Part shown: one piece after another, positions 4,056-22,586 of the stretch
Position numbering within the stretch: position 1 is the stretch's first letter
Layout: each line of letters begins with the position of its first letter
Source of the DNA: a virus
IMG/VR virus record: IMGVR_UViG_3300022927_000120
Location: 1-24,053 of that record
Direction: 5' to 3' (one strand)
DNA: 24,053 nucleotides
Notes under the pieces: generated by a model
Database searches by the model: none
Seen by the model: only the letters and a program-made list of their open reading frames with translations
What the model was told of the DNA's origin: nothing
Position numbers and translations under genes: made by a program

Positions 4056-7000
4056 ATGGCCAAGCAACAGGTAGATATTGGTACCGAGGGTAATGACGGT
4101 ACTGGTGATAGTATACGTGAAAGTTTTAAGAAGGTAAATGAAAATTTTGAGGAACTGTATGCCGTATTTGGCATCGGGGGGCAAATTGGATTTGTGGATC
4201 TTACAGATACACCTAACACATTACTAGGTAATGAAACTAAGATTCCGGTAGTCAATCCAGCAGGTAATGCTATAGAACTTAGAAGTTTAACTAGTAATGG
4301 CTCAGTAGCATTTAGTTTTGATCAAGATGGTGAAGTAGTAATTAGTGTTGCAAGTTCTAATGTTGAGTTAGACACAAGTCCTACACTAGGTGGCCCGTTA
4401 GACGGCGGCGGTTTTGCTATAGGAAACATAGACGTATCAGAAGATGCAGTAACACTTCTTAATGGTATTCATGGCGCTAATTTTACAATTGACGACTTGG
4501 CGATTAATAAACGTTATGCGGATGCTACTTACGAACCTAAACTTACTATAGGTGGTTTAAGACTTGCAGACGAACCTACAACAGTTTCGCAATATACAAT
4601 AGCAGTTGATACAATAACAGTAGGTGCTGGTGACTTACGCGGTGACTTAACTGTTACAGCACACGGATTAGCAGATAACTATACAGGATCAGGCTGGGTA
4701 TTCTCTAGTACTGGTGATATGCCAACATTTCTAAATTCTACAACAGGCGCCGGTGGTACCCTTACACAGGGCGCAGTTTATTTTATTGGAGTTAAGGATG
4801 AAAACACACTTACAGTTCATCCTACACAAAATGATGCACAAACAGGCGGCACTAGATATATTCTTACTACAGGCACTGGCACATTAACTCTTGTAGACCA
4901 AGACTATGATGCAACCTTACCAGGTAACTGGTTAAAGAGTGTTGCTATTCCAAGAAAGTCAGCAGTACGTAGACAAGGTGATTCGATGGACGGAGCATTA
5001 TTCCTTTCTGACCATCCTGGATCATTCAAAGGTGTAGGTATTCCTAACGGACAAGATGACCTACAAGCAGCAACAAAATTATACGTAGATCAACTATCAG
5101 GCGAAAGCCAAGTTAACATTTATGTTAGTGAGCAAGGCGACGATTTACAAAAAAACACACCAAACGGCAAAGAAGGATCTAGTTTACAACTAGCCTTTAG
5201 ATCTGTCAATGCAGCATGTAGAAAAGCTGAGGAAATTATGATTGCTGCTCCTAGAGAGCCGGGTCCGTATATGCAAACTATTACATATAATAATTTTGAA
5301 AATGCCGCAACTGTTCTAAACGCAGGTATGCAATCACCGGTAGCAGATAGAGCTGATGCAAGAGTATTACTAGAAAAGAATAAACTATTTTTACAAAAAG
5401 AAGTTATAGCGTATACTGATGCACAGTTTCCTGCATTTAATTATGATAGAGCAAGATGTGAACTTGACGTTGGTTTAATACTAGATAGTATTGGGCTAGA
5501 TATTCTAAGAGGTAATACTGCTAACTTCCTTTCAAGACAAGCAGGACTTAGATATTATAGCACGTCTAGTGGTAAGAGAGCGGTAGGTGAACAGTTGATT
5601 CAAACTGTAGCAGCAATGCAATACCTAAAACAACTTGTTACACAATATATTGTTAATAATGTAGCAGTTCCGCTTCCAACACAAAGTCGTGTTGACCAAG
5701 TTATAGACACAAATTACGAACCTGATAACCTTGCTGTAGCAGCAATTTCTGATAAATTTGATGTTATACTTGCTATTGTACAGAATGGTGTTTTTTCTGC
5801 TCCTCAAATAATTGACGGTTCTACAGATTATAAAATTAACATTGATCAAGGTACATCGTCAAGAGTTGATCAGGCAGATCCTACTAATACAGATATCATT
5901 CCAGGTAAACTTATTAGAGGTAAAACAAGTGGTGCTCTAGGACGTATTATTGATTATGTAAGAGAAGAAGATGCTGGAAACAGTGACCCGTTTGATTTTG
6001 CTCTAGTTGAATTATATGAACCAATTGACTTTTTACCTGATGAAGAATTAGAATACGGTAACCAAGTGCAAGAGAAGCAAATATCGATTATAATCGAATC
6101 AGGAATTTATGACGAAGACTATCCAATAAGAGTTCCGCCGAATGTATCTATTGTAGGTAATGAATTTAGAAGAAGTATTATACGTCCTAAAGATAGAGTA
6201 TCACAATCACCACTTGCAGATTTATTCTATTATAGAGATAATGAATTTGATGGATTAGTTATAGGTATATCTAACATAGGTACTATAGGTACATTTGTTA
6301 ATGATGGCGCAGATGCTAGTAGAACTCCAGGTACATATACAGTTGATTCTACTTTATATACAACCTTAGGATATGGCGCAGATGCGATCTTTACAGTAGT
6401 TGTCGCACCAGACGGTGCAGCAACAGTTACAGTTACAGACTCTGGAAAGAACTGGAGAGTGGGAGATACAATTAGTATACCTGATTCTGCACTAGGCGGT
6501 GGCGGCGGCGCTTTGTTATCGTTTAATGTTGCTACTGTTGATAACGGCGTTCCGTATGTAAATCCTTTAACTGGTAACACTGACGGATATTTTGGTAGAC
6601 ACTATTTAAGAAATCCAGCAGCAACTAAAAATGTAGGACCAGGTTTTACAAATATAGGTAACTGGAATACATATGCTACTGTGTTTACAGATAATAAAGA
6701 ATTTATAAAAGAACAAGTTGATGCATATTTACAAGATCAACATTTTACAGCAGTAAATGGTAATTATGTAAGAGCTGATTTTAAATCCTTAATTGGTAAT
6801 ATGGTAGATTTAATTGCACAAGATCTTGTAAGAGGCGGATTAGAATTTACACTAGAAGCACAAGGTTTACTATTTGAAAATTCTACAACTTATACAGGTA
6901 TAGAAACTGAAATTTCTGACGCATTAGATCATATTCCTACAATGTTTGACAATATATGGATTGGACAAAATCCAACAGAATTGTATGACAGTGCAAGGAT

Positions 7001-10000
7001 TTATCAAAATGCTGATGTATTCTACGGAGATATTACTCCTGACTTATGGGAAACAGATGTAAAATACGAAGCCTACGAAGTAATTAGATTTTACGAAGGC
7101 GGGAACTTTAATTGGTATAGTGCAAACACTTCACATAGAAGTGGTCCTGCGTTTGATGCTACTGAAAAGAATCAATATTGGACACAAGTCGAAACACCGT
7201 TTACTATTATACAAAACATGATCGACTCTATAAAATTTGCGTTCAATGCCGCATACAATCCAGCTAAGAACAACAAAGACATGGATGTATTCTTAATGAA
7301 CGATGGTACAATTCTACGTAACATTACAGTTAAAGAGCATGGCGGGTTTATGGGTGTATTAGATCCTGAAGGACAAGTACTTACACGCTCTCCTTATATA
7401 CAAACTGGATCAAGTTTTAGTGCTTCTGTTAACAAACAAGCATTTAGAGGTGGATTGTTTGTTGATGCATTTTCTGGTAATATGGCAGTACAGGTTACTG
7501 GTAAAGTTACAGGTGATGCGTTTAGATTAAATATTCAAAGTTTACCTGGGCAAGGCTTGTTTATTAGACGCCCACAAACGCCAAGTGCATTTTATATACA
7601 AGGTAGACGTTTCCAAGTTAATGCTATTACAGCATACGATCAATCATTAGGTACTGCTACAATTATATTAGATCCTAGTTCTAACAGTGGTATAGGTTTT
7701 AGTGGAATAACCAGTGCTATTAACGGTATTGATTTAGATAATGCTACACCGGGTACTCCGATTGCAATTACATTACAAACTGCTGGTAACAGAAGTATGC
7801 TAGGTAATGACTTTACACAAATTAATGACTTAGGTTATGGACTTGTTTGTGTAAACGGAGCTTTATCAGAAATGGTTAGTATGTTCACTTATTATTGCTG
7901 GACTTCATACTATAGTAAAAATGGTTCTGAGATTAGATCAATTACAGGATCAAGTTGTTATGGTGAGTACGGACTAGTTGCTGAAGGTGCTGATCCTAAC
8001 GAAGTTCCTGATAGAGTTTCGCTTGTTGAAGATATGGTTGATCCTGCTAAGGTATTTACAGCAGAATTAATTCTGCATATGCCAACAGGCGTAAGTGTAT
8101 CAGCAGGTGATGCTGTAACAAGTGCAAATCCGGGTGTATCAGCAGAGGTTGCAATTAGCACAAACGGGTTATATGTCTATCTAACAAATGTAGTAGGGGT
8201 ATTTACTACAACTGATGCAGTTTCAGTTTCTGGTACACCGATTGGTACACCGGCTGACATAGACAGTGTTGGATATAATAATAGAGAAGAAGCACTTAGC
8301 ATTTATACATATGATTTTAAAACACCGCCTGATGCTAGAGCAGAGTTTGATTTATATCATACTAATCTAGGTAGAATGGAAAGATATAGTGTAAACAGTA
8401 TTGAAAGAGTATCAACACATATCATAAATTCAACACCATATATAGGACAATCTACTACACCAAATGTACAAACACAAACAGACGGTGGTACAGCTTCTGG
8501 TACAAATGCTATGTTTACTGTATTGAAGAACGTAACAAATGGTTATGAAGTTATTATAACAACAGCAGGTACAGGATATGCTGTAGGCGAAACGTTTACT
8601 ATTGTAGGTACAAAATTAGGTGGTGCTACACCTCTTAACGATGCAACTATTACAGTATCTGAAATTGATGCTGGCGCAGTTGGTGGGATAGGATCTATTA
8701 CAGGAGTTACTATATCGGGTGCCTTTGCTGGTGATAGTTTAACACCGATATATAACAACTATATCTACAAATTAAATTTATCAAGCGGCAATAGTGGTTC
8801 AACAACCAGCGGGTTTAGTTCTGAAGGACTTGCAGAGGCTGTTCCGTTAGATACGTTTATTGAATACAGACGTAACAGTATTCATATTCTTGATGACTTA
8901 ACTAATATTCAAACTCTAACAATTCGTCCTAGTACAGCTATTGTGTTTGATGAAAATAAAGACCAAGTTTATAGATCAATTAGTTTCCAAAATTCAAACA
9001 GTGCAGGTGACGAACTTGAATCAGATGAAGTAGCAGCAGGTATCGATACTGTTTTTGATTATATTAGACTACAGATTAACAACACTTATGCAGCTGAACC
9101 AATCGGTAACGTAACTGGGTTAAATAATCAACCTCTTACAGGTGGTACTACAAAAGGTAATTCTGTAGATGACGTAGTGTTGGCGGTTGAAGCACCAACA
9201 GATGTTAAAGATATTAACAGATTGAACAACAACGCTAGAACACCTACAGAAAATCGTCCAGTAGGATGGACAGCAGATACGCTAACGGCTGAAGCACCGA
9301 TATTTACATATCAAGGTACAAAGTTTTATGTGTTTAACTATAGAGGCGTTGGTGACGATGGTGCAGGCAACGATATTGTGCAAACACTTGATAATGTAGT
9401 TAATCCTAATAACTTATATGGTATTGTTGACATTTTACCTGTTGGGCACGATATTAATACAACACATGCAGGCAGTGGCTTACCAGCAAGTATTGTTCTT
9501 AATCCAGGATATACTATTAGAGCCGGACTAGCCGCAGGCGCATTAGGTGATGTTACAGTTAACATCAGTACATGTAGAGCAACAGGACACGATTTCCTAG
9601 ATGTCGGTACAGGGTCGTACAACACAAGTAACTATCCAAATGTTATTTTTGGTGCGCCGAGAGAGCCAGATCAATCTAATGAAGTTATTGAACGTGGTAA
9701 AGGGCGTGTGTTCTACGTAAGTACAGATCAAAACGGTATGTTTAGAGTAGGACGCTTCTTTAGTGTTGATCAAGGTACTGGTGCTGTTAGTTTTGAAGCA
9801 AGTATTGCTCTTTCAAACGTTGACGGATTAGGATTTAAACGTGGTGTTGTTATTGCTGAATTTAGTACAGATTCTAGTATGGCAGATAATGCTACTGATG
9901 CAGTTCCAACTGAAAGTGCAGTACGTGGCTACGTTGACAGACGCTTTGGTATTGATGTTGAAGGTCAAACAGTTCCGAATCCATTAGGACCTAGTATTTT

Positions 10001-12524
10001 ACTTGCTAACGGTGCAAACCAAATGACAGGTGATTTAAGAATGAATGGTCAAATGGTTACTGGCTTAACATTCCCTGAAGCAGATACAGATGCTACACGT
10101 AAGAGTTATGTAGACGCAGTAGCAGGAGCAATCGACTCATTAAACGATCTAACTGACACTACAATTTACGATGCACAGGAAACACAATTCCTTGTTGCAT
10201 CAGGTAAACAAAAAATCGGAGTAAAAGGTATTACAGGTGGATTATTTGAATTAGGACAAACAATTACAGGTGGCACTTCGGGTGCAACTGGGTTAGTAAT
10301 TGACTTTGCTACAGAAAGTGATGTAAAATTAGGTACTGTACAATATCTAACTTACGATTCTACCAATGCATTTGAATTTGTCGAAGATGAAGTAATATCA
10401 GTTGTAGCTGGACCGAGTGCTACTACAATTAACTTTCCAGAATACGAATGGATGAACGGTATTTTTGATGCAGGAAGTGACATTGATTTTTCAGCTACAC
10501 GTAATACAAGTCAATCAGGCGGTAACCCAACTGGACGTAGTCTTACACTAGATGTTCAATATAAAGCAGGTAGTATAGTAAATTCAGATGTAAATGCATC
10601 AGCGGCTATTGCACAAAGTAAACTTGCAATGAATGCTGCAACAACTAGAACAGATGCTACTGGAATAGGTCAAAACGATTTAGGACTAGTTGCATTTCAT
10701 AATACTCAATTTACATTGACTAATGGTTGGGCTGAGATTGCCACAGCATCAAATGCAACTACTGGCGTTGAAAAAGCAAATCTTGCGCATATCGAAACAG
10801 AAAATGTTTTAGGTAGAGCAACAGCAGCAACAGGTGCAGTTGAAGAAGTGTCATTTAATACTGTAGTTAACACAGGCGGCGGCATATTACACACTGACAT
10901 TCCTGATGCTGACACAGGTGCAGTTATTAGAACTGGTACTGAAGCATATGATATCACTGGTATTACAACATCAGCAGCAAATGATAGTATTGTAAAGACT
11001 ACTGCAGATGGTAGTGTACATGTCAAAAAACTTATTGTAGGAACTAATACTACTCAAATAATACTTGACACTGATAATACTGACATTACCTTTAAAACAC
11101 CAGCGCAGGGTACAATATTTACTGCTAGAGGTGCGGCCGGTGCAGAAGTTGCTAGAATTACAGCAGATTTGGATATAATTGGTGATGGTACAGCAGGTCA
11201 AGATTTTGTTGTAGAAAGCTCACTTAAAACTAACAGTACATATGGTACTGCAAAAGCATTAGCAAGTCGCTGGAACTATATGAGTTTTATAGAAGCTCCT
11301 GATGAGAAAAACGCTTATAGTACAGGGATATCAATCGGCGCTGGTACTGGTAAAACAGCAGCAGGACAGGTTGGTGTTGTTGTATCAAACCAATCCGGCG
11401 GGAGAAGTGATGTTCCAGCAATATTCTCTAGTTACGGACAAGAGCCAGACGCAGATGCGTCAACTGCAAGTGCAGGATATAACATTGGATCTACAAGTTT
11501 TAAGTACAATACAATGTATGCTAGAAACTTTGTTGCTGACATAAACTTTGTTGGTAACTTAACTGGTGATGTGATGGGCGATGTGTATGCAATTACAGAT
11601 GACGGCTTAGCAACTACTAAGATAGTAGAGACAGGAACATATACTGGTACTACACACAACGGTGATGCAACATTTGCTGGAACAGCAGATAAGGCAGACA
11701 ATGCAGACAACGTTGAAATTGATGTTGTAAATGATAATACAGATTATCAAATTACATTTGTTAATGCAGCAAGTAATCCAAATGACCCTAGTTATAGTAG
11801 ACTTAAGATTGATGATGATAATACACATTTAACTTATAATCCTGATTCAGGAAATTTAACCACAACTACAGTCACTGCTAATTTAACTGGTAATGTTACA
11901 GGTAATCTAACTGGTAATGTTACAGGTAATATTTCAGGTAACTTAAAGTCTAGCAATGGTACTAATATAATTGATACAGGTAATGACGGAACTGCTACTG
12001 AATTAAAAGTTGACATTAGAACAAGGGAGATTGTTCCTGAAGGTAGTGGCACAAGTTCAGCAACCTATAATATAGGCGCATCATCTAACACTTACAACAC
12101 AGGGTATATCGACTTTATACAAGGTATTGCAAATGAAGCATACTATGCTGACCTTGCAGAAAACTATACTGCTGACACTCATTATGAGCCAGGAACTGTA
12201 GTCATATTTGGTGGTGAAAAAGAACTTACATTAACTACACGCAACAGTGATCATAGAGTAGCAGGTGTTGTTTCTACAAATCCAGCATACTTAATGAATT
12301 CACATTGTGAAAGCGAGTTTGTAGCTGCTGTAGCATTACAAGGGAGAGTACCGTGTAATGTTATAGGCAAAGTAGAAAAAGGTGATATTTTAGTTACTAG
12401 TGATATTCCAGGATTTGCAGTAGTCAATAACGATGCTAATGCAGGTAGAATAATTGGTAAGTCTCTAGAAAATAAAACCAATGAAAGTGAAGGAATTATC
12501 GAAATTGTAGTTGGCAAGCATTAA
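4056..12524 (+). CDS. Giant tail-fibre / adhesin-like virion protein (2,822 aa)
   Basis: The ATG at 4056 follows AAAGGGGG, and one frame stays open for 8.5 kb. Residues 7-33 carry the phage structural motif (DIGTEGNDGTGDSIRESF, then KVNENF), also present in the 13136 protein. About 106-130 has SPTLGGPLDGGG, and 337-347 and 1993-2025 have ATKLYVD / ATRKSYVD modules of long tail fibres. About 678-712 (IIIESGIYDEDYPIRVPPNV) looks like the opening of a right-handed beta-helix. Two Gly/Thr-rich beta modules with 'vGdtftI'-like ends lie near 745-830 and 1475-1545. GNLTG/GNVTG repeats occupy 2609-2631. The last 125 residues start YYADLAENYTADTHYEPGTV and recur at the ends of marine phage fibre proteins, perhaps as a trimerisation or tip-processing domain. 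It most likely forms a tail or baseplate fibre contacting the host. The first strand-rich part probably attaches to the virion. It is far longer than T4 gp34 or gp37. Confidence 0.85.
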   Translation: MAKQQVDIGTEGNDGTGDSIRESFKKVNENFEELYAVFGIGGQIGFVDLTDTPNTLLGNETKIPVVNPAGNAIELRSLTSNGSVAFSFDQDGEVVISVASSNVELDTSPTLGGPLDGGGFAIGNIDVSEDAVTLLNGIHGANFTIDDLAINKRYADATYEPKLTIGGLRLADEPTTVSQYTIAVDTITVGAGDLRGDLTVTAHGLADNYTGSGWVFSSTGDMPTFLNSTTGAGGTLTQGAVYFIGVKDENTLTVHPTQNDAQTGGTRYILTTGTGTLTLVDQDYDATLPGNWLKSVAIPRKSAVRRQGDSMDGALFLSDHPGSFKGVGIPNGQDDLQAATKLYVDQLSGESQVNIYVSEQGDDLQKNTPNGKEGSSLQLAFRSVNAACRKAEEIMIAAPREPGPYMQTITYNNFENAATVLNAGMQSPVADRADARVLLEKNKLFLQKEVIAYTDAQFPAFNYDRARCELDVGLILDSIGLDILRGNTANFLSRQAGLRYYSTSSGKRAVGEQLIQTVAAMQYLKQLVTQYIVNNVAVPLPTQSRVDQVIDTNYEPDNLAVAAISDKFDVILAIVQNGVFSAPQIIDGSTDYKINIDQGTSSRVDQADPTNTDIIPGKLIRGKTSGALGRIIDYVREEDAGNSDPFDFALVELYEPIDFLPDEELEYGNQVQEKQISIIIESGIYDEDYPIRVPPNVSIVGNEFRRSIIRPKDRVSQSPLADLFYYRDNEFDGLVIGISNIGTIGTFVNDGADASRTPGTYTVDSTLYTTLGYGADAIFTVVVAPDGAATVTVTDSGKNWRVGDTISIPDSALGGGGGALLSFNVATVDNGVPYVNPLTGNTDGYFGRHYLRNPAATKNVGPGFTNIGNWNTYATVFTDNKEFIKEQVDAYLQDQHFTAVNGNYVRADFKSLIGNMVDLIAQDLVRGGLEFTLEAQGLLFENSTTYTGIETEISDALDHIPTMFDNIWIGQNPTELYDSARIYQNADVFYGDITPDLWETDVKYEAYEVIRFYEGGNFNWYSANTSHRSGPAFDATEKNQYWTQVETPFTIIQNMIDSIKFAFNAAYNPAKNNKDMDVFLMNDGTILRNITVKEHGGFMGVLDPEGQVLTRSPYIQTGSSFSASVNKQAFRGGLFVDAFSGNMAVQVTGKVTGDAFRLNIQSLPGQGLFIRRPQTPSAFYIQGRRFQVNAITAYDQSLGTATIILDPSSNSGIGFSGITSAINGIDLDNATPGTPIAITLQTAGNRSMLGNDFTQINDLGYGLVCVNGALSEMVSMFTYYCWTSYYSKNGSEIRSITGSSCYGEYGLVAEGADPNEVPDRVSLVEDMVDPAKVFTAELILHMPTGVSVSAGDAVTSANPGVSAEVAISTNGLYVYLTNVVGVFTTTDAVSVSGTPIGTPADIDSVGYNNREEALSIYTYDFKTPPDARAEFDLYHTNLGRMERYSVNSIERVSTHIINSTPYIGQSTTPNVQTQTDGGTASGTNAMFTVLKNVTNGYEVIITTAGTGYAVGETFTIVGTKLGGATPLNDATITVSEIDAGAVGGIGSITGVTISGAFAGDSLTPIYNNYIYKLNLSSGNSGSTTSGFSSEGLAEAVPLDTFIEYRRNSIHILDDLTNIQTLTIRPSTAIVFDENKDQVYRSISFQNSNSAGDELESDEVAAGIDTVFDYIRLQINNTYAAEPIGNVTGLNNQPLTGGTTKGNSVDDVVLAVEAPTDVKDINRLNNNARTPTENRPVGWTADTLTAEAPIFTYQGTKFYVFNYRGVGDDGAGNDIVQTLDNVVNPNNLYGIVDILPVGHDINTTHAGSGLPASIVLNPGYTIRAGLAAGALGDVTVNISTCRATGHDFLDVGTGSYNTSNYPNVIFGAPREPDQSNEVIERGKGRVFYVSTDQNGMFRVGRFFSVDQGTGAVSFEASIALSNVDGLGFKRGVVIAEFSTDSSMADNATDAVPTESAVRGYVDRRFGIDVEGQTVPNPLGPSILLANGANQMTGDLRMNGQMVTGLTFPEADTDATRKSYVDAVAGAIDSLNDLTDTTIYDAQETQFLVASGKQKIGVKGITGGLFELGQTITGGTSGATGLVIDFATESDVKLGTVQYLTYDSTNAFEFVEDEVISVVAGPSATTINFPEYEWMNGIFDAGSDIDFSATRNTSQSGGNPTGRSLTLDVQYKAGSIVNSDVNASAAIAQSKLAMNAATTRTDATGIGQNDLGLVAFHNTQFTLTNGWAEIATASNATTGVEKANLAHIETENVLGRATAATGAVEEVSFNTVVNTGGGILHTDIPDADTGAVIRTGTEAYDITGITTSAANDSIVKTTADGSVHVKKLIVGTNTTQIILDTDNTDITFKTPAQGTIFTARGAAGAEVARITADLDIIGDGTAGQDFVVESSLKTNSTYGTAKALASRWNYMSFIEAPDEKNAYSTGISIGAGTGKTAAGQVGVVVSNQSGGRSDVPAIFSSYGQEPDADASTASAGYNIGSTSFKYNTMYARNFVADINFVGNLTGDVMGDVYAITDDGLATTKIVETGTYTGTTHNGDATFAGTADKADNADNVEIDVVNDNTDYQITFVNAASNPNDPSYSRLKIDDDNTHLTYNPDSGNLTTTTVTANLTGNVTGNLTGNVTGNISGNLKSSNGTNIIDTGNDGTATELKVDIRTREIVPEGSGTSSATYNIGASSNTYNTGYIDFIQGIANEAYYADLAENYTADTHYEPGTVVIFGGEKELTLTTRNSDHRVAGVVSTNPAYLMNSHCESEFVAAVALQGRVPCNVIGKVEKGDILVTSDIPGFAVVNNDANAGRIIGKSLENKTNESEGIIEIVVGKH
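11880..11927 (+). repeat. Tandem 24-base repeat coding N-L-T-G-N-V-T-G
   Basis: Two copies (11880-11903 and 11904-11927) differ at one base and are followed by a degenerate third copy (ISGNL). They encode GN-L/V-TG units, common as shaft spacers near the ends of marine phage fibres. A looser copy (VGNLTGDVMGDV) is encoded near 11550. Confidence 0.8.
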
Positions 12525-19377: not shown

Positions 19378-19644
19378 ATGGATCAGCAAGTACAACAGTT
19401 TGAAGAGTGGCATACTCTAATTGCAGAGTGGCACAAGTATCACAAATCAACATCTCCCGGCACAACAACTAGATTGAAGAAACGATTCGCTCAGTATTCT
19501 TTTGACTATTTTAAGTTGATGTCAGAGTATAGAAAAACAGGCAAACCTAGTTTACTTAGTAAAGCTGATGCTATCTACGAATCTGCAGAGAAAGAAATAA
19601 AAACTTTCAAAAGATATGAATTAATAGGTACATTATCAAAATAA
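19378..19644 (+). CDS. Unknown helical protein (88 aa)
   Basis: The frame begins MDQQVQQFEEWHTLIAEWHK and is helical and basic throughout, with aromatic residues spaced along the helices (SFDYFKLMSEYRKTG, then ADAIYESAEKEIKTFKRYEL). No ribosome site of normal strength is seen before ATG 19378; only GTGGGCG lies there. No motif identifies a function. It ends directly before the early promoter at 19648 and so may be the last gene of the preceding unit. Confidence 0.6.
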   Translation: MDQQVQQFEEWHTLIAEWHKYHKSTSPGTTTRLKKRFAQYSFDYFKLMSEYRKTGKPSLLSKADAIYESAEKEIKTFKRYELIGTLSK

Positions 19645-19647
19645 AGG

Positions 19648-19675
19648 TTGACACTGTGTTGATTAGTGTTATATT
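19648..19675 (+). promoter_or_regulatory. Early sigma70-type promoter with extended -10, and a second overlapping promoter
   Basis: TTGACA at 19648-19653, 16 bases, TATATT at 19670-19675, preceded by TGT to give an extended -10 (TGnTATATT). A second set, TTGATT at 19659-19664 and TATAAT at 19681-19686 (16 bases), overlaps it. The inverted pair TGTTAT (19667-19672) and ATAACA (19685-19690) brackets the region. The leader then gives AGAGGGCAACATG. The same ordered elements recur at 22777-22831. Confidence 0.7.
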
Positions 19676-19705: not shown

Positions 19706-19870
19706 ATGCTAGAACAACTTATCGAACAATACGCCAATTGGATTGCAGAACAAGGTCTTCCTGCTATGAGTGCAGACGAACTTGAGTGGGAAGATTGTGT
19801 TAATGCAGAACAGCGTAAATGGTTGCGTGATTTTTGTGAGCAATGGGAAGCAGCAGAGGAGTTGGTGTAA
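19706..19870 (+). CDS. Very acidic 54-aa protein preceding the nuclease gene
   Basis: ATG 19706 has AGAGG upstream, and the TAA at 19868-19870 overlaps the next ATG as TAATG, so translation is probably coupled. The product (MLEQLIEQYANWIAEQGLPA onward) has 14 Asp/Glu against 3 Lys/Arg, and four tryptophans. The cluster DELEWED (24-30) and the C-terminal EQWEAAEELV are strongly negative. No family is recognised. Small, acidic, helical proteins next to a nuclease gene can be inhibitors or DNA mimics, such as anti-restriction proteins. That is only a suggestion from charge and position. Confidence 0.65.
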   Translation: MLEQLIEQYANWIAEQGLPAMSADELEWEDCVNAEQRKWLRDFCEQWEAAEELV

Positions 19871-20511
19871 TGTCTAAACAAGATGTTATAGATTCTAAAG
19901 AGGATCTAAAAGAAGCATTTCGTCTTCTTAAAAAAGTAGTGGATGCAACAGGAGTAAATCTTATCGACAACTATAGTTACCGTGAATTTACTTCATTAGC
20001 AGACATTCAGGAACTACTTCCAAGCGTTAAAAAGACACCAGGCCGGACCGGCGACGATGCGAGTGCAATAGAAGAAGGTTATAAAAGTCTTGAATTGAAA
20101 TCAGGCACTTGTAGAGCTAAAACACTAACTGAAAACAATTTTGCTCAACTAAAATTTGACAAACAAAACGAGTCAGTTCGTAGGGAAGCAATTTTTAAAT
20201 ATGACGGATTTGGGTTAAGTGTGTTTGAATATTATGAACCTTACCCTACTGCTACTATTTTTGTATCTAAAGATCATGTTGAAAAATTACATCCAGTTTT
20301 TAAAGAAAAACAATCTGATAAACTTGCAGTTTTTGAGAGGAAACGGGCCGAGGGTAAAAATATTGGCAGAGACGATATTGGAATTACACTAAAAGATATC
20401 GTTAATTCGGTAGGAGAAGAGAATCTTATCTGCTGGTTGTATGGAAAAAGAATTAATTCTGTTGAGTTCTTTCGTAGATTACGTAACAAAGAAATTAAAT
20501 TAAGTCAATAA
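19870..20511 (+). CDS. Candidate PD-(D/E)xK nuclease, possible restriction endonuclease (213 aa)
   Basis: The start is ATG 19870 (TAATG overlap); an earlier in-frame ATG at 19843 is rejected because it lies inside the acidic gene. After a helical N-terminus comes GRTGDDASAIEEGYKSLELK (58-77). Here D62/D63 followed by E75-L-K77 fits the D...ExK active site of type II restriction-type nucleases, where the Asp and Glu bind magnesium and the Lys activates water. A second strand region follows (AIFKYDGFGLSVFEYYEPYP), then KDIVNSVGEENLICWLYGK. Length suits a small type II enzyme. The neighbours are a ParB-like protein and a DNA methyltransferase, the usual company of such enzymes. The sequence target is unknown. 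The call rests on the motif and context, since no close family name comes to mind. Confidence 0.55.
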   Translation: MSKQDVIDSKEDLKEAFRLLKKVVDATGVNLIDNYSYREFTSLADIQELLPSVKKTPGRTGDDASAIEEGYKSLELKSGTCRAKTLTENNFAQLKFDKQNESVRREAIFKYDGFGLSVFEYYEPYPTATIFVSKDHVEKLHPVFKEKQSDKLAVFERKRAEGKNIGRDDIGITLKDIVNSVGEENLICWLYGKRINSVEFFRRLRNKEIKLSQ

Positions 20512-20610
20512 TTTATATAGTGTAGTATAATTGCGCTAAATAAACTGTAAGCAAAAAAGCTTTTAGCACCTTTGCTTACCCTTAAAACATTATGTATAAA
20601 GGAGACACAA
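20512..20610 (+). promoter_or_regulatory. Leader region of the ParB-like/methyltransferase unit with alternative hairpins
   Basis: This 99-base gap holds a TATAAT at 20526-20531 without a good -35 box, a late-type GCTAAATA-like stretch at 20535-20542, and an inverted repeat GTAAGCAAA (20547-20555) with TTTGCTTAC (20571-20579). A second possible pairing, GCTAAA (20535-20540) with TTTAGC (20562-20567), overlaps the first, so the two hairpins exclude each other. Inside the loop is the palindrome AAAAGCTTTT (20555-20564). No U-run follows, so a simple terminator is unlikely. AAAGGAG precedes ATG 20611. Confidence 0.45.
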
Positions 20611-21717
20611 ATGAATACAATGTTTAATACAGTCGAACCTTCGACAAAAGTCCGTGCTAGAGTTCAAGGCAAACCGCAACAACCAAATTTCAACGGACAA
20701 GGTGTAATAGACCTAAATACTTTTACCAATATGAATATCCCAAATCCCAAAGACGATTCTTTGATGTTTAGTCATTGGACTTTTTTAAATATCTCACAAT
20801 CACAATATTCCTTAAATGATCTCAATTACGGCATTAGAGAAAGCGATATAGATTCTTGGGAAGATCATGTCGAAGATCTCAAACAAAGCCTAGTATCTGC
20901 AGGATTTTCAATGTCCCAAACTACACCCTGGATTTATGAAGATGGCGGCACAGGTGACGGAAGATCACGATTTAAAGCTGCTAGAGATTTAGGATATGAT
21001 TATTTTCCTGTAGCAGTTTTTGTTAAAGCAGAAGGCGAAGTCACAGACTTAGATCGTTTAGTCAATGCAACAAAATCAAATATGCAAGGGTTTCCGCAAA
21101 AAAGAGCAAAGAAGAACGACTTCATTGCTAATGCAGAAAAGGCTCTCCGCGAACAATGGATTGAAAATAATTTAGAATCTGTTAGAGAGTTTTGTTTTGA
21201 AACTCTAGGGTTATCTGAATATTATGCAAACAGCACTGCAACAGTAACTGAAATTGCATCAAAAGCATATAATAATTTTAATGCAGGTGGAAATAGCGTC
21301 TTAAACGCTCCTACAACTACAATTAAAGACTGGCTAAAAGATAACGGATACAATTTAAATAAAAAAACTAAACTTGTTGCAACAAACAACGAGACATACG
21401 CTCTAAGAGAATTTGAGTCAATCTTAGATAGTGTGAATAAAGGCTACGATCCTATTTCTTTTATTTTTTATACCAAGGCATCTAACAGTGATAAAGCAAG
21501 AAAAGACCTTGATAACTTTTTAAAGAAACTGGAGTCGTTATATACTTTATCGCAGAAAGCAGTACTAAAGAATATTGAGAAAAGTACTGGCATGAAAATG
21601 ACTTTACCTCAAACTGATGAAAGGCCTTGGCAAGTCTTAGGATGTATTCCACAAATACTCGGTGAGCATCCAAATTTAGAAGATACTAACCAACTTATTT
21701 CAGTAAAGGATTACTAA
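20611..21717 (+). CDS. ParB/Srx-like nuclease-domain protein linked to DNA methyltransferase (368 aa)
   Basis: ATG 20611 follows AAAGGAG; a longer frame through the leader hairpin is rejected. Residues about 84-145 (SWEDHVEDLKQSLVSAGF, TPWIYEDGGTGDGRSRFKAA, then LGYDYFPVAVFVKAEG) match the ParB N-terminal/sulfiredoxin-like fold: a helix that selects a value, a 'GDGRSR' loop (115-120) for phosphate or CTP binding, and a 'LGYd.fPVavf' strand. Such domains are common in phage proteins next to, or fused with, adenine methyltransferases. The remaining 220 residues are helical and polar (ESILDSVNKGYDPISFIFYT) and may bind DNA or the partner enzyme. TAA overlaps the methyltransferase ATG, indicating coupled translation. 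The activity could be DNA binding, an NTPase switch or nicking; the sequence does not settle this. Confidence 0.7.
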   Translation: MNTMFNTVEPSTKVRARVQGKPQQPNFNGQGVIDLNTFTNMNIPNPKDDSLMFSHWTFLNISQSQYSLNDLNYGIRESDIDSWEDHVEDLKQSLVSAGFSMSQTTPWIYEDGGTGDGRSRFKAARDLGYDYFPVAVFVKAEGEVTDLDRLVNATKSNMQGFPQKRAKKNDFIANAEKALREQWIENNLESVREFCFETLGLSEYYANSTATVTEIASKAYNNFNAGGNSVLNAPTTTIKDWLKDNGYNLNKKTKLVATNNETYALREFESILDSVNKGYDPISFIFYTKASNSDKARKDLDNFLKKLESLYTLSQKAVLKNIEKSTGMKMTLPQTDERPWQVLGCIPQILGEHPNLEDTNQLISVKDY

Positions 21718-22586
21718 TGACATATAAAGTTTACAATCAAGATTGTATATCTGGTATGCGTAAACATGTAGAAGATGGGTCAGTGGATTTAATTTTCACT
21801 GATCCTCCTTATGGTATTGATGGCGATAAACTAGATGCACACTATCACCGAGATGAAAGCAATGTTGTTCCGGGTTACGTAGAAGTTCCACTTGAAACAT
21901 ACGACCAGTTTAGCAAAGACTGGATAAGTGAATGTGCAAGATGTTTGCGTCCAGGTGGCAGCATTTATATTGTAAGTGGATATACTAATCTGCATCATGT
22001 ATTAAATGCACTACACGCAACAGATTTACAAGAAGTTAATCATATTATTGCAAAATATTCATTTGGTGTTAGCACTAAAAAGAAATGGGTCAGTAGTCAT
22101 TATCATATATTGTTTTGGCAAAAGCCAAACAAAGGAAAACAGACTCGTACATTTAATACAAATGTATACTACACTGATCAAAAAGACAGTTATCACGATA
22201 GATTAACTGTGCAAGATATGCCTCGAGCACATAATCCTGGTGAAACAAAAAATAAAAATCAACTTAACGAAGACTTTATTGAGAAGTTTATTTTATACAG
22301 TAGTAGTAGAAATGAAACTGTAATGGATCCATTTTGCGGCGGATTTACAACGCCTCGAACTGCATTAAGATATGGTAGAAACTTTGTTGGGTTTGAAATG
22401 AATAAAAATGCGTATGATGCTTTTCTTCCTACATTAGATAAGGTAGAAGAAAAAGATGACCCTGTTCCTGTTAGTCCTGATGCTGCCGAACTTGCAAAGC
22501 GAGAAAAAATGCGTGAAGGTTGGAAAAGAGATAGAGCCAAACGTAAAGCAGAACTAAACTCTAATTTATTTAAGGAAGAAAATTAA
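21717..22586 (+). CDS. DNA methyltransferase, DPPY class (adenine-N6 or cytosine-N4) (289 aa)
   Basis: The catalytic motif IV is FTDPPYG at 27-33 (DPPY 29-32) and the S-adenosylmethionine motif I lies near the end (MDPFCGGFTTPRTA, 203-216), followed by FVGFEMN (223-229). Catalytic motif before binding motif is the beta-type order of N6-adenine/N4-cytosine methyltransferases. CLRPGGSIYIVSG (76-88) is the conserved strand before the target-recognition part (about 120-185, KKWVSSHYHILFWQKPNKGK). The C-terminal 45 residues are basic (KREKMREGWKRDRAKRKAEL) and may bind DNA. ATG 21717 overlaps the ParB-like stop, with AAAGGA upstream. All motifs are intact, so it should be active. It could protect phage DNA from the neighbouring nuclease or from host restriction. 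Confidence 0.88.
   Translation: MTYKVYNQDCISGMRKHVEDGSVDLIFTDPPYGIDGDKLDAHYHRDESNVVPGYVEVPLETYDQFSKDWISECARCLRPGGSIYIVSGYTNLHHVLNALHATDLQEVNHIIAKYSFGVSTKKKWVSSHYHILFWQKPNKGKQTRTFNTNVYYTDQKDSYHDRLTVQDMPRAHNPGETKNKNQLNEDFIEKFILYSSSRNETVMDPFCGGFTTPRTALRYGRNFVGFEMNKNAYDAFLPTLDKVEEKDDPVPVSPDAAELAKREKMREGWKRDRAKRKAELNSNLFKEEN

Follow-up and report, generated by a model that had tools for sequence, protein, structure and literature searches.

Does viral DNA that carries a candidate nuclease gene close to a DNA methyltransferase (MTase) gene encode a complete restriction-modification (R-M) system? The question is raised by a locus in the IMG/VR virus record IMGVR_UViG_3300022927_000120, of which we analysed positions 1 to 24,053 (24,053 bases, hereafter the window). 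An earlier reading of the letters alone (the sequence-only reading) had described four linked genes running in one direction, encoding an acidic 54-amino-acid (aa) protein, a 213-aa PD-ExK candidate, a ParB/Srx-like protein with a GDGRSR loop and a complete beta-type MTase, and had remarked that phages normally carry lone MTases. This description held. Four intact open reading frames (ORFs), all on the + strand, are closely packed across 19706-22586 with 1-nt stop/start overlaps (TAATG) at 19870 and at 21717, and the named motifs, including D62/D63 and E75-L-K77 of the 213-aa protein, are present. Complete R-M systems are indeed rare in phages, with 9 systems in 831 genomes (PMC4176335). We consider it likely that the locus is a compact phage-borne type II-like R-M cassette, whose activity, site and role are predicted.

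Linkage of the nuclease and methyltransferase genes

Judged by its sequence, the 289-aa protein is unambiguously a beta-class N6/N4 MTase. It matches Pfam N6_N4_Mtase (1.6e-29), and both the DPPY motif and the S-adenosylmethionine-binding DPFCGG motif are present and conserved. A scan of 2.9 million viral contigs resulted in 44 loci with MTases 71-99% identical; the relatives (L numbers below) are partly incomplete contigs. Around the MTase homologues we saw six gene arrangements. The window carries the 213-aa nuclease, ParB and MTase genes in this order, and in L002-L012 (L007 cut short) a different nuclease, family B, takes the first place. Family B lies directly 5′ of the MTase in L013, L015-L019 with close relatives, L035, L036 and L038. 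A 58% identical 213-type nuclease overlaps the MTase, where the contig reaches, in L028-L030, L047 and L048, all without ParB; the contig of L048 ends inside the nuclease. L049 belongs to an unrelated phage and has UvsX upstream; its nuclease (30% identical) overlaps its MTase (40% identical). Finally, in L031/L033 the MTase is followed by a different ParB-like protein, an HNH-like ORF and family B, an order that was read in L031. The MTase of L031 had been a candidate orphan and was rejected as such, as the nuclease lies 1.8 kb downstream in the same record. Only a truncated nuclease is left in L014, and none was seen in the 5.9 kb of L020.

The linkage was assessed by searching 24 records for both nuclease families; 12 of these carry the MTase, and the other 12 are MTase-less giant-phage records related by gp23. 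A nuclease of either family was present in 10 of the 12 MTase-bearing and in none of the 12 MTase-less records (hypergeometric 3.4e-5). Since the records are interrelated and many are fragments, p values overstate their independence, and the linkage is best taken as a strong association, with a p value that is not clean. The nuclease and MTase genes are thus adjacent and kept together, as in type II R-M, and the pairing persists across distant phages, which bears out the R-M-like unit proposed from the sequence. The proposed linkage of three genes stood for this pair and failed for ParB; the 54-aa gene was not linked either.

Comparison of the window with L002/L003 revealed how the nuclease is replaced. 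Identity is 97.9% up to 19872, where the nuclease start codon lies. It resumes at 21706, shortly ahead of the MTase start, at 99.7%. Blastn finds no similarity in between, where L002/L003 carry a nuclease unrelated to that of the window and a ParB of 30% identity. Nuclease, leader and ParB were therefore cleanly exchanged as a unit. The MTase is 99% identical between the two, so both nucleases must suit the same mark. Among L002, L004 and L011 the ParB proteins are 76-88% identical and the nucleases only about 23-29%, which marks the nuclease as the fast-changing part. Thus, the MTase is constant and the nuclease exchangeable, with two unrelated nuclease families serving the same MTase. Neither this exchange nor the AGCT avoidance described below had been anticipated by the sequence-only reading. 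Both nuclease families are under purifying selection, with a dN/dS of about 0.1-0.2 for family B, and a dN of 0.32 at saturated dS between the 213-aa nuclease and its L028 homologue.

Table 1. Positions of the genes and regulatory elements of the cassette in the window.
Position	Strand	Feature	Remarks
19648..19675	+	sigma-70-type promoter TTGACA-N16-TATATT	11/12 consensus matches; ahead of the 54-aa gene and the nuclease
19706..19870	+	54-aa acidic protein, phrog_9962	ORF; found in L002/L003
19870..20511	+	213-aa putative PD-(D/E)xK restriction endonuclease	D63, E75-x-K77; homologues adjoin the MTase
20536..20542	+	CTAAATA	one mismatch to T4-late-type ATAAATA; ParB leader
20547..20579	+	inverted repeat GTAAGCAAA...TTTGCTTAC	hairpin in ParB leader, 3′ of CTAAATA
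20611..21717	+	368-aa ParB/Srx-like accessory protein	GDGRSR loop
21717..22586	+	289-aa beta-class N6/N4 DNA methyltransferase	Pfam match; probable site AGCT
19873..21705	.	exchanged segment: nuclease, leader and ParB	blastn, window against L002/L003

The 54-aa protein is a weak member of the gene set and probably a bystander gene of the window's phage lineage. It is limited to the window and the near-identical L002/L003; in the other loci no copy precedes the nuclease. No small helix-turn-helix (HTH) controller gene was found ahead of the nuclease; the 54-aa protein has no Pfam match and is missing from most loci. Elsewhere the window encodes a 2,822-aa tail-fibre-like protein (4056-12524; phrog_9851, 1.6e-50) and a 363-aa protein matching a phage endonuclease family (1467-2558; phrog_8420, 8.9e-74).

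A different cassette was seen in L062 (IMGVR_UViG_3300025658_000255, 6340-11894). The gene immediately before it is a 92% identical copy of an 88-aa gene of the window (19378-19644). The cassette contains a ParB-like protein (WDGQHT, weak phrog_1033), an HNH protein, pieces resembling helicases and MTases of the Eco57I type. The position after the 88-aa gene may be a hotspot for modification and restriction modules. L062 was rejected as a near-isogenic control, since it has only about 300 bp (92%) in common with the window and is therefore an unrelated comparison.

AGCT avoidance and the probable methyltransferase site

Which site would the MTase mark? We compared tetramer avoidance by Markov expectation between 15 MTase-bearing and 12 MTase-less records over all 136 tetramers. 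The median ratio of observed to expected counts (O/E) of AGCT was 0.17 in the former and 0.87 in the latter (log difference -1.45, p 2.3e-4). Only AGCT strongly separates the two groups; the next negative shift, -0.32, is about a fifth as big. As AGCT alone is strongly purged in the MTase-bearing relatives, it is likely the target site of the MTase, and as it is reduced throughout its hexamer and flanking contexts, the site is probably the tetranucleotide itself. The nearest solved relative of the MTase is CcrM (6pbd, 5e-18), a likeness that extends to other beta-class N6A MTases. Unlike CcrM, the window MTase is short (289 aa) and its phage does not avoid GANTC (O/E 0.94), and GANTC, considered on account of this likeness, was rejected as its site.

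Several observations on this avoidance count against the proposed R-M cassette. The avoidance is milder in the window (36 observed, 77 expected, O/E 0.47), and the L002 genome (O/E 0.39) is likewise weaker than the median. AGCT is also strongly depleted in G014, G019 and L139, three contigs without a visible MTase, and the 30-kb record L037 has the MTase and the depletion with no detected nuclease of either family. The avoidance fits self-restriction and could also reflect a host restriction enzyme with the same site; it is informative about the MTase site more than about the identity of the cutter.

These points bear on the most durable rival explanation, which we nevertheless consider unlikely. 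It holds that the MTase is purely a counter-defence, protecting the phage from an AGCT restriction enzyme common in hosts, and that the nuclease is an independent degrader of host DNA with an unrelated specificity. That phages mostly bear solitary MTases (PMC4176335) agrees with it, as do L037 and the three depleted contigs. However, two unrelated nuclease families each recur beside the MTase and are absent from 12 of 12 MTase-less relatives, and the nuclease and MTase of L049, at 30% and 40% identity, still adjoin head to tail and overlap at their ends. There is no evident reason why a nuclease indifferent to the MTase should travel with it.

Further depletions were observed in two sets of records. 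In the giant-phage contigs G014 and G019 (loci L115, L112, L183 and L184) CATG occurs 0 times where 190 and 51 are expected, which together with their AGCT depletion suggests another, unrecognised restriction pressure. G008 (L049, L174) is tenfold depleted in GGCC (4 against 40 expected) and far less in AGCT (39 of 61); it encodes three N6/N4 MTases, one of them paired with the distant 213-aa homologue. A 409-aa ORF resembling, by eye, a TnpB-type transposon-associated protein lies near this pair (L049, 9931-11160).

The ParB-like protein and the predicted nuclease folds

The 368-aa protein had no direct Pfam or PDB match and no useful curated model. Six homologues, two of them cyanophage proteins of which one is annotated ParB, all keep the G, R and R of its GDGRSR loop, and the L004 relative weakly matches a type II MTase model upstream of the methylase part. 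The gene is absent from most nuclease-MTase pairs and stands alone in the cyanophages P-SSM3 and RN05-S, which indicates an optional accessory. ParB-like proteins of other families recur near cassettes in L013, L031 (by eye) and L062, and a role in regulation or in handling DNA is therefore plausible. The protein is probably a DNA-binding regulator.

The sequence-only reading had also considered a ParB-gated variant of R-M. Under such an explanation, this protein would control or target the nuclease as an obligatory third component. The gene order of the window and L002-L012, with ParB in the middle, would suit it, as would the nearby ParB-like proteins of L013, L031 and the alternative cassette of L062, and the joint swap of nuclease and ParB between the window and L002. 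Nevertheless it is not supported, and we consider it improbable. Most pairs lack this ParB, including those of the window's own nuclease family (L028, L049), and the cyanophage ParB has no adjoining nuclease or MTase. The identities given above for L002, L004 and L011 reveal no co-variation of ParB and nuclease, and no evidence for gating of the nuclease by ParB was found.

D63, E75 and K77 of the 213-aa protein are invariant across three homologues of its family at identities down to 30%. Direct Pfam, PHROG, PADLOC, NCBIfam and PDB sequence searches gave nothing usable for it, and pattern scans of GTDB genomes gave no relative. For its structure model, PvuII chains rank 1-3 of 350,542 in Foldseek, and BLASTP against authenticated PvuII, one single comparison, aligned a common PGR-x-G-x-D...ELKS stretch (E 0.008). 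AGCT is the centre of the PvuII site CAGCTG, so that this fold lead, weak alone, agrees with the AGCT site. The evidence is tempered by the weak model (pLDDT 69.5, from a family of only three diverse sequences), by a Foldseek E of 0.14, which is not significant, and by the PvuII family profile, which places the protein only about 10th of 1,247 ORFs. With hhalign giving a probability of 3% (E 0.013) and Pfam no match, membership of the PvuII family by profile was rejected, leaving a fold lead only. A PD-(D/E)xK nuclease fold is nevertheless likely for the 213-aa protein. The protein thus remains a PD-ExK candidate by its invariant D...E-x-K and its best fold match from structure prediction, with profile homology to PvuII not established.

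Family B gave a confident model (L015-type, AlphaFold pLDDT 91.6), whose best PDB matches in Foldseek are DpnI (E 8e-4, prob 1.0), NhoI and Eco15I. Its predicted fold is that of a PD-(D/E)xK restriction enzyme, with E44, D64, E75 and K77 kept (L015 numbering). Comparison of family B with the 213-aa family found no homology. Cyanophage S-SM1 contains one remote fold and profile relative of family B, and no MTase of the N6/N4 class was found in its genome. Neither nuclease family was matched by tblastn among 50,697 deposited phage records. That the nuclease cuts modified DNA, like DpnI and the BisI family, is very improbable: the top matches of family B are modification-dependent enzymes and m6A-dependent restriction by a viral enzyme has precedent (PMC10101028), but the family B match is partial (TM about 0.4), the window nuclease matches PvuII best instead, and such an enzyme beside the MTase making its mark would attack its own genome.

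Expression, proposed mechanism and known systems

The early promoter that the sequence-only reading had assigned to the nuclease corresponds to a site with near-perfect consensus (Table 1), which is probably an early promoter. L002 keeps a sigma-70-type promoter at the equivalent place, and most other loci have a different strong promoter ahead of the nuclease. Overall, 10 of 12 related loci have a promoter of at least 9/12 before the nuclease or the preceding 54-aa gene, 9 of them scoring at least 10, compared with 5% of random 110-nt windows.

The ParB leader of L002, L004 and L011 contains an exact ATAAATA at the place of the window's CTAAATA; the mismatch in the window itself argues against a late promoter there. 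ATAAATA is rare in the window (4 observed, 13.5 expected). All four sites are on the coding strand, and three (3653, 12542 and 18055, + strand) lie just 5′ of genes, 20-30 nt before their starts. This depletion, strand confinement and placement suggest that such sites are likely T4-late-type promoters of the window's clade. The arms of the leader hairpin co-change in L002 (GTAAACAG...CTGTTTAC) and nearly so in L004/L011, where one arm differs, and the hairpin is possibly an RNA or operator element. With an early promoter before the nuclease and a late-type motif before ParB, the nuclease of the ParB-bearing arrangement would be expressed early and the ParB-MTase part also late. In most other arrangements, nuclease and MTase appear to share the early promoter.

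The phage background is given by two cassette-bearing relatives of 236 and 256 kb. Both have a major capsid protein of the T4 gp23 type (E about 1e-102 to 1e-103), whose closest counterparts are in jumbo phages, among them Sinorhizobium phage Phosso and Vibrio phage 2.275.O. No gp23 was found in the shorter cassette records, which are fragments. Going by these two relatives, the cassette would belong to a giant T4-like (jumbo) aquatic phage.

Computation shows the gene order, linkage, exchange, purifying selection, family B fold and AGCT avoidance, whereas catalysis, cutting at AGCT, the timing, the sparing of virion DNA and the role of ParB belong to the following inferred course. On phage DNA the MTase would mark a short palindrome, most likely AGCT, and the 213-aa protein would be the matching nuclease, cutting the unmarked site. 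The nuclease would be transcribed early from its own host-type promoter, and ParB-MTase also later from a T4-late-type promoter. Incoming virion DNA, methylated in the preceding round, would be spared, and the nuclease would cut DNA of the host or of a competing phage that lacks the mark. The MTase would then mark progeny DNA, with the ParB-like protein as an optional DNA-binding regulator. We further suggest, tentatively and with somewhat less than even confidence, that in a clade of T4-like giant phages a fixed MTase and AGCT target are served by interchangeable non-homologous nucleases swapped as a cassette, and that AGCT is purged from the genomes because the early nuclease acts before progeny methylation is complete.

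If true, these phages would be using the cassette as a weapon on host or rival DNA, and self-restriction would shape their own genomes. A phage family that keeps its MTase and swaps its nuclease offers a natural test of R-M partner evolution, and AGCT-specific enzymes are predicted from two unrelated nuclease families.

Among known systems, solitary phage MTases are likewise phage-borne, whereas the cassette MTase has a nuclease gene alongside in most records. The PvuII R-M system of the Proteus plasmid pPvu1 includes the best, though not significant, fold match of the 213-aa nuclease, with the PGR-x-G-x-D...ELKS stretch in common and AGCT within its site. It differs in its HTH controller gene, of a kind that the cassette lacks, and in its MTase, which is of the SPPY N4C type, the cassette MTase being of the DPPY type.

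Chlorovirus R-M pairs (CviAII, CviJI), like the cassette, consist of an adjoining virus-encoded nuclease and MTase; host DNA is degraded early, presumably by the viral restriction enzyme, and viral DNA is methylated (PMC7019647). Unlike the cassette phages, chloroviruses are eukaryotic algal viruses that package the nuclease in the virion, and the available part of that account describes no ParB-like gene and no nuclease exchange with a constant MTase. The GATC system of Marseillevirus is a complete viral R-M whose nuclease is expressed before the MTase, the order we propose for the ParB-bearing cassette, and it can cut rival viruses without the mark (PMC7253447). Marseilleviruses, however, infect amoebae, use a GATC site and do not degrade host DNA. 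Virus-borne R-M is therefore a kind already known, from chloroviruses and marseilleviruses (PMC7019647, PMC7253447). What is new is an MTase that stays constant while unrelated nucleases are exchanged beside it, in bacterial viruses, with no tblastn match for either nuclease among the deposited phages. The cassette would be the bacterial-virus counterpart of the chlorovirus and marseillevirus systems, with host degradation and rival exclusion as the competing roles.

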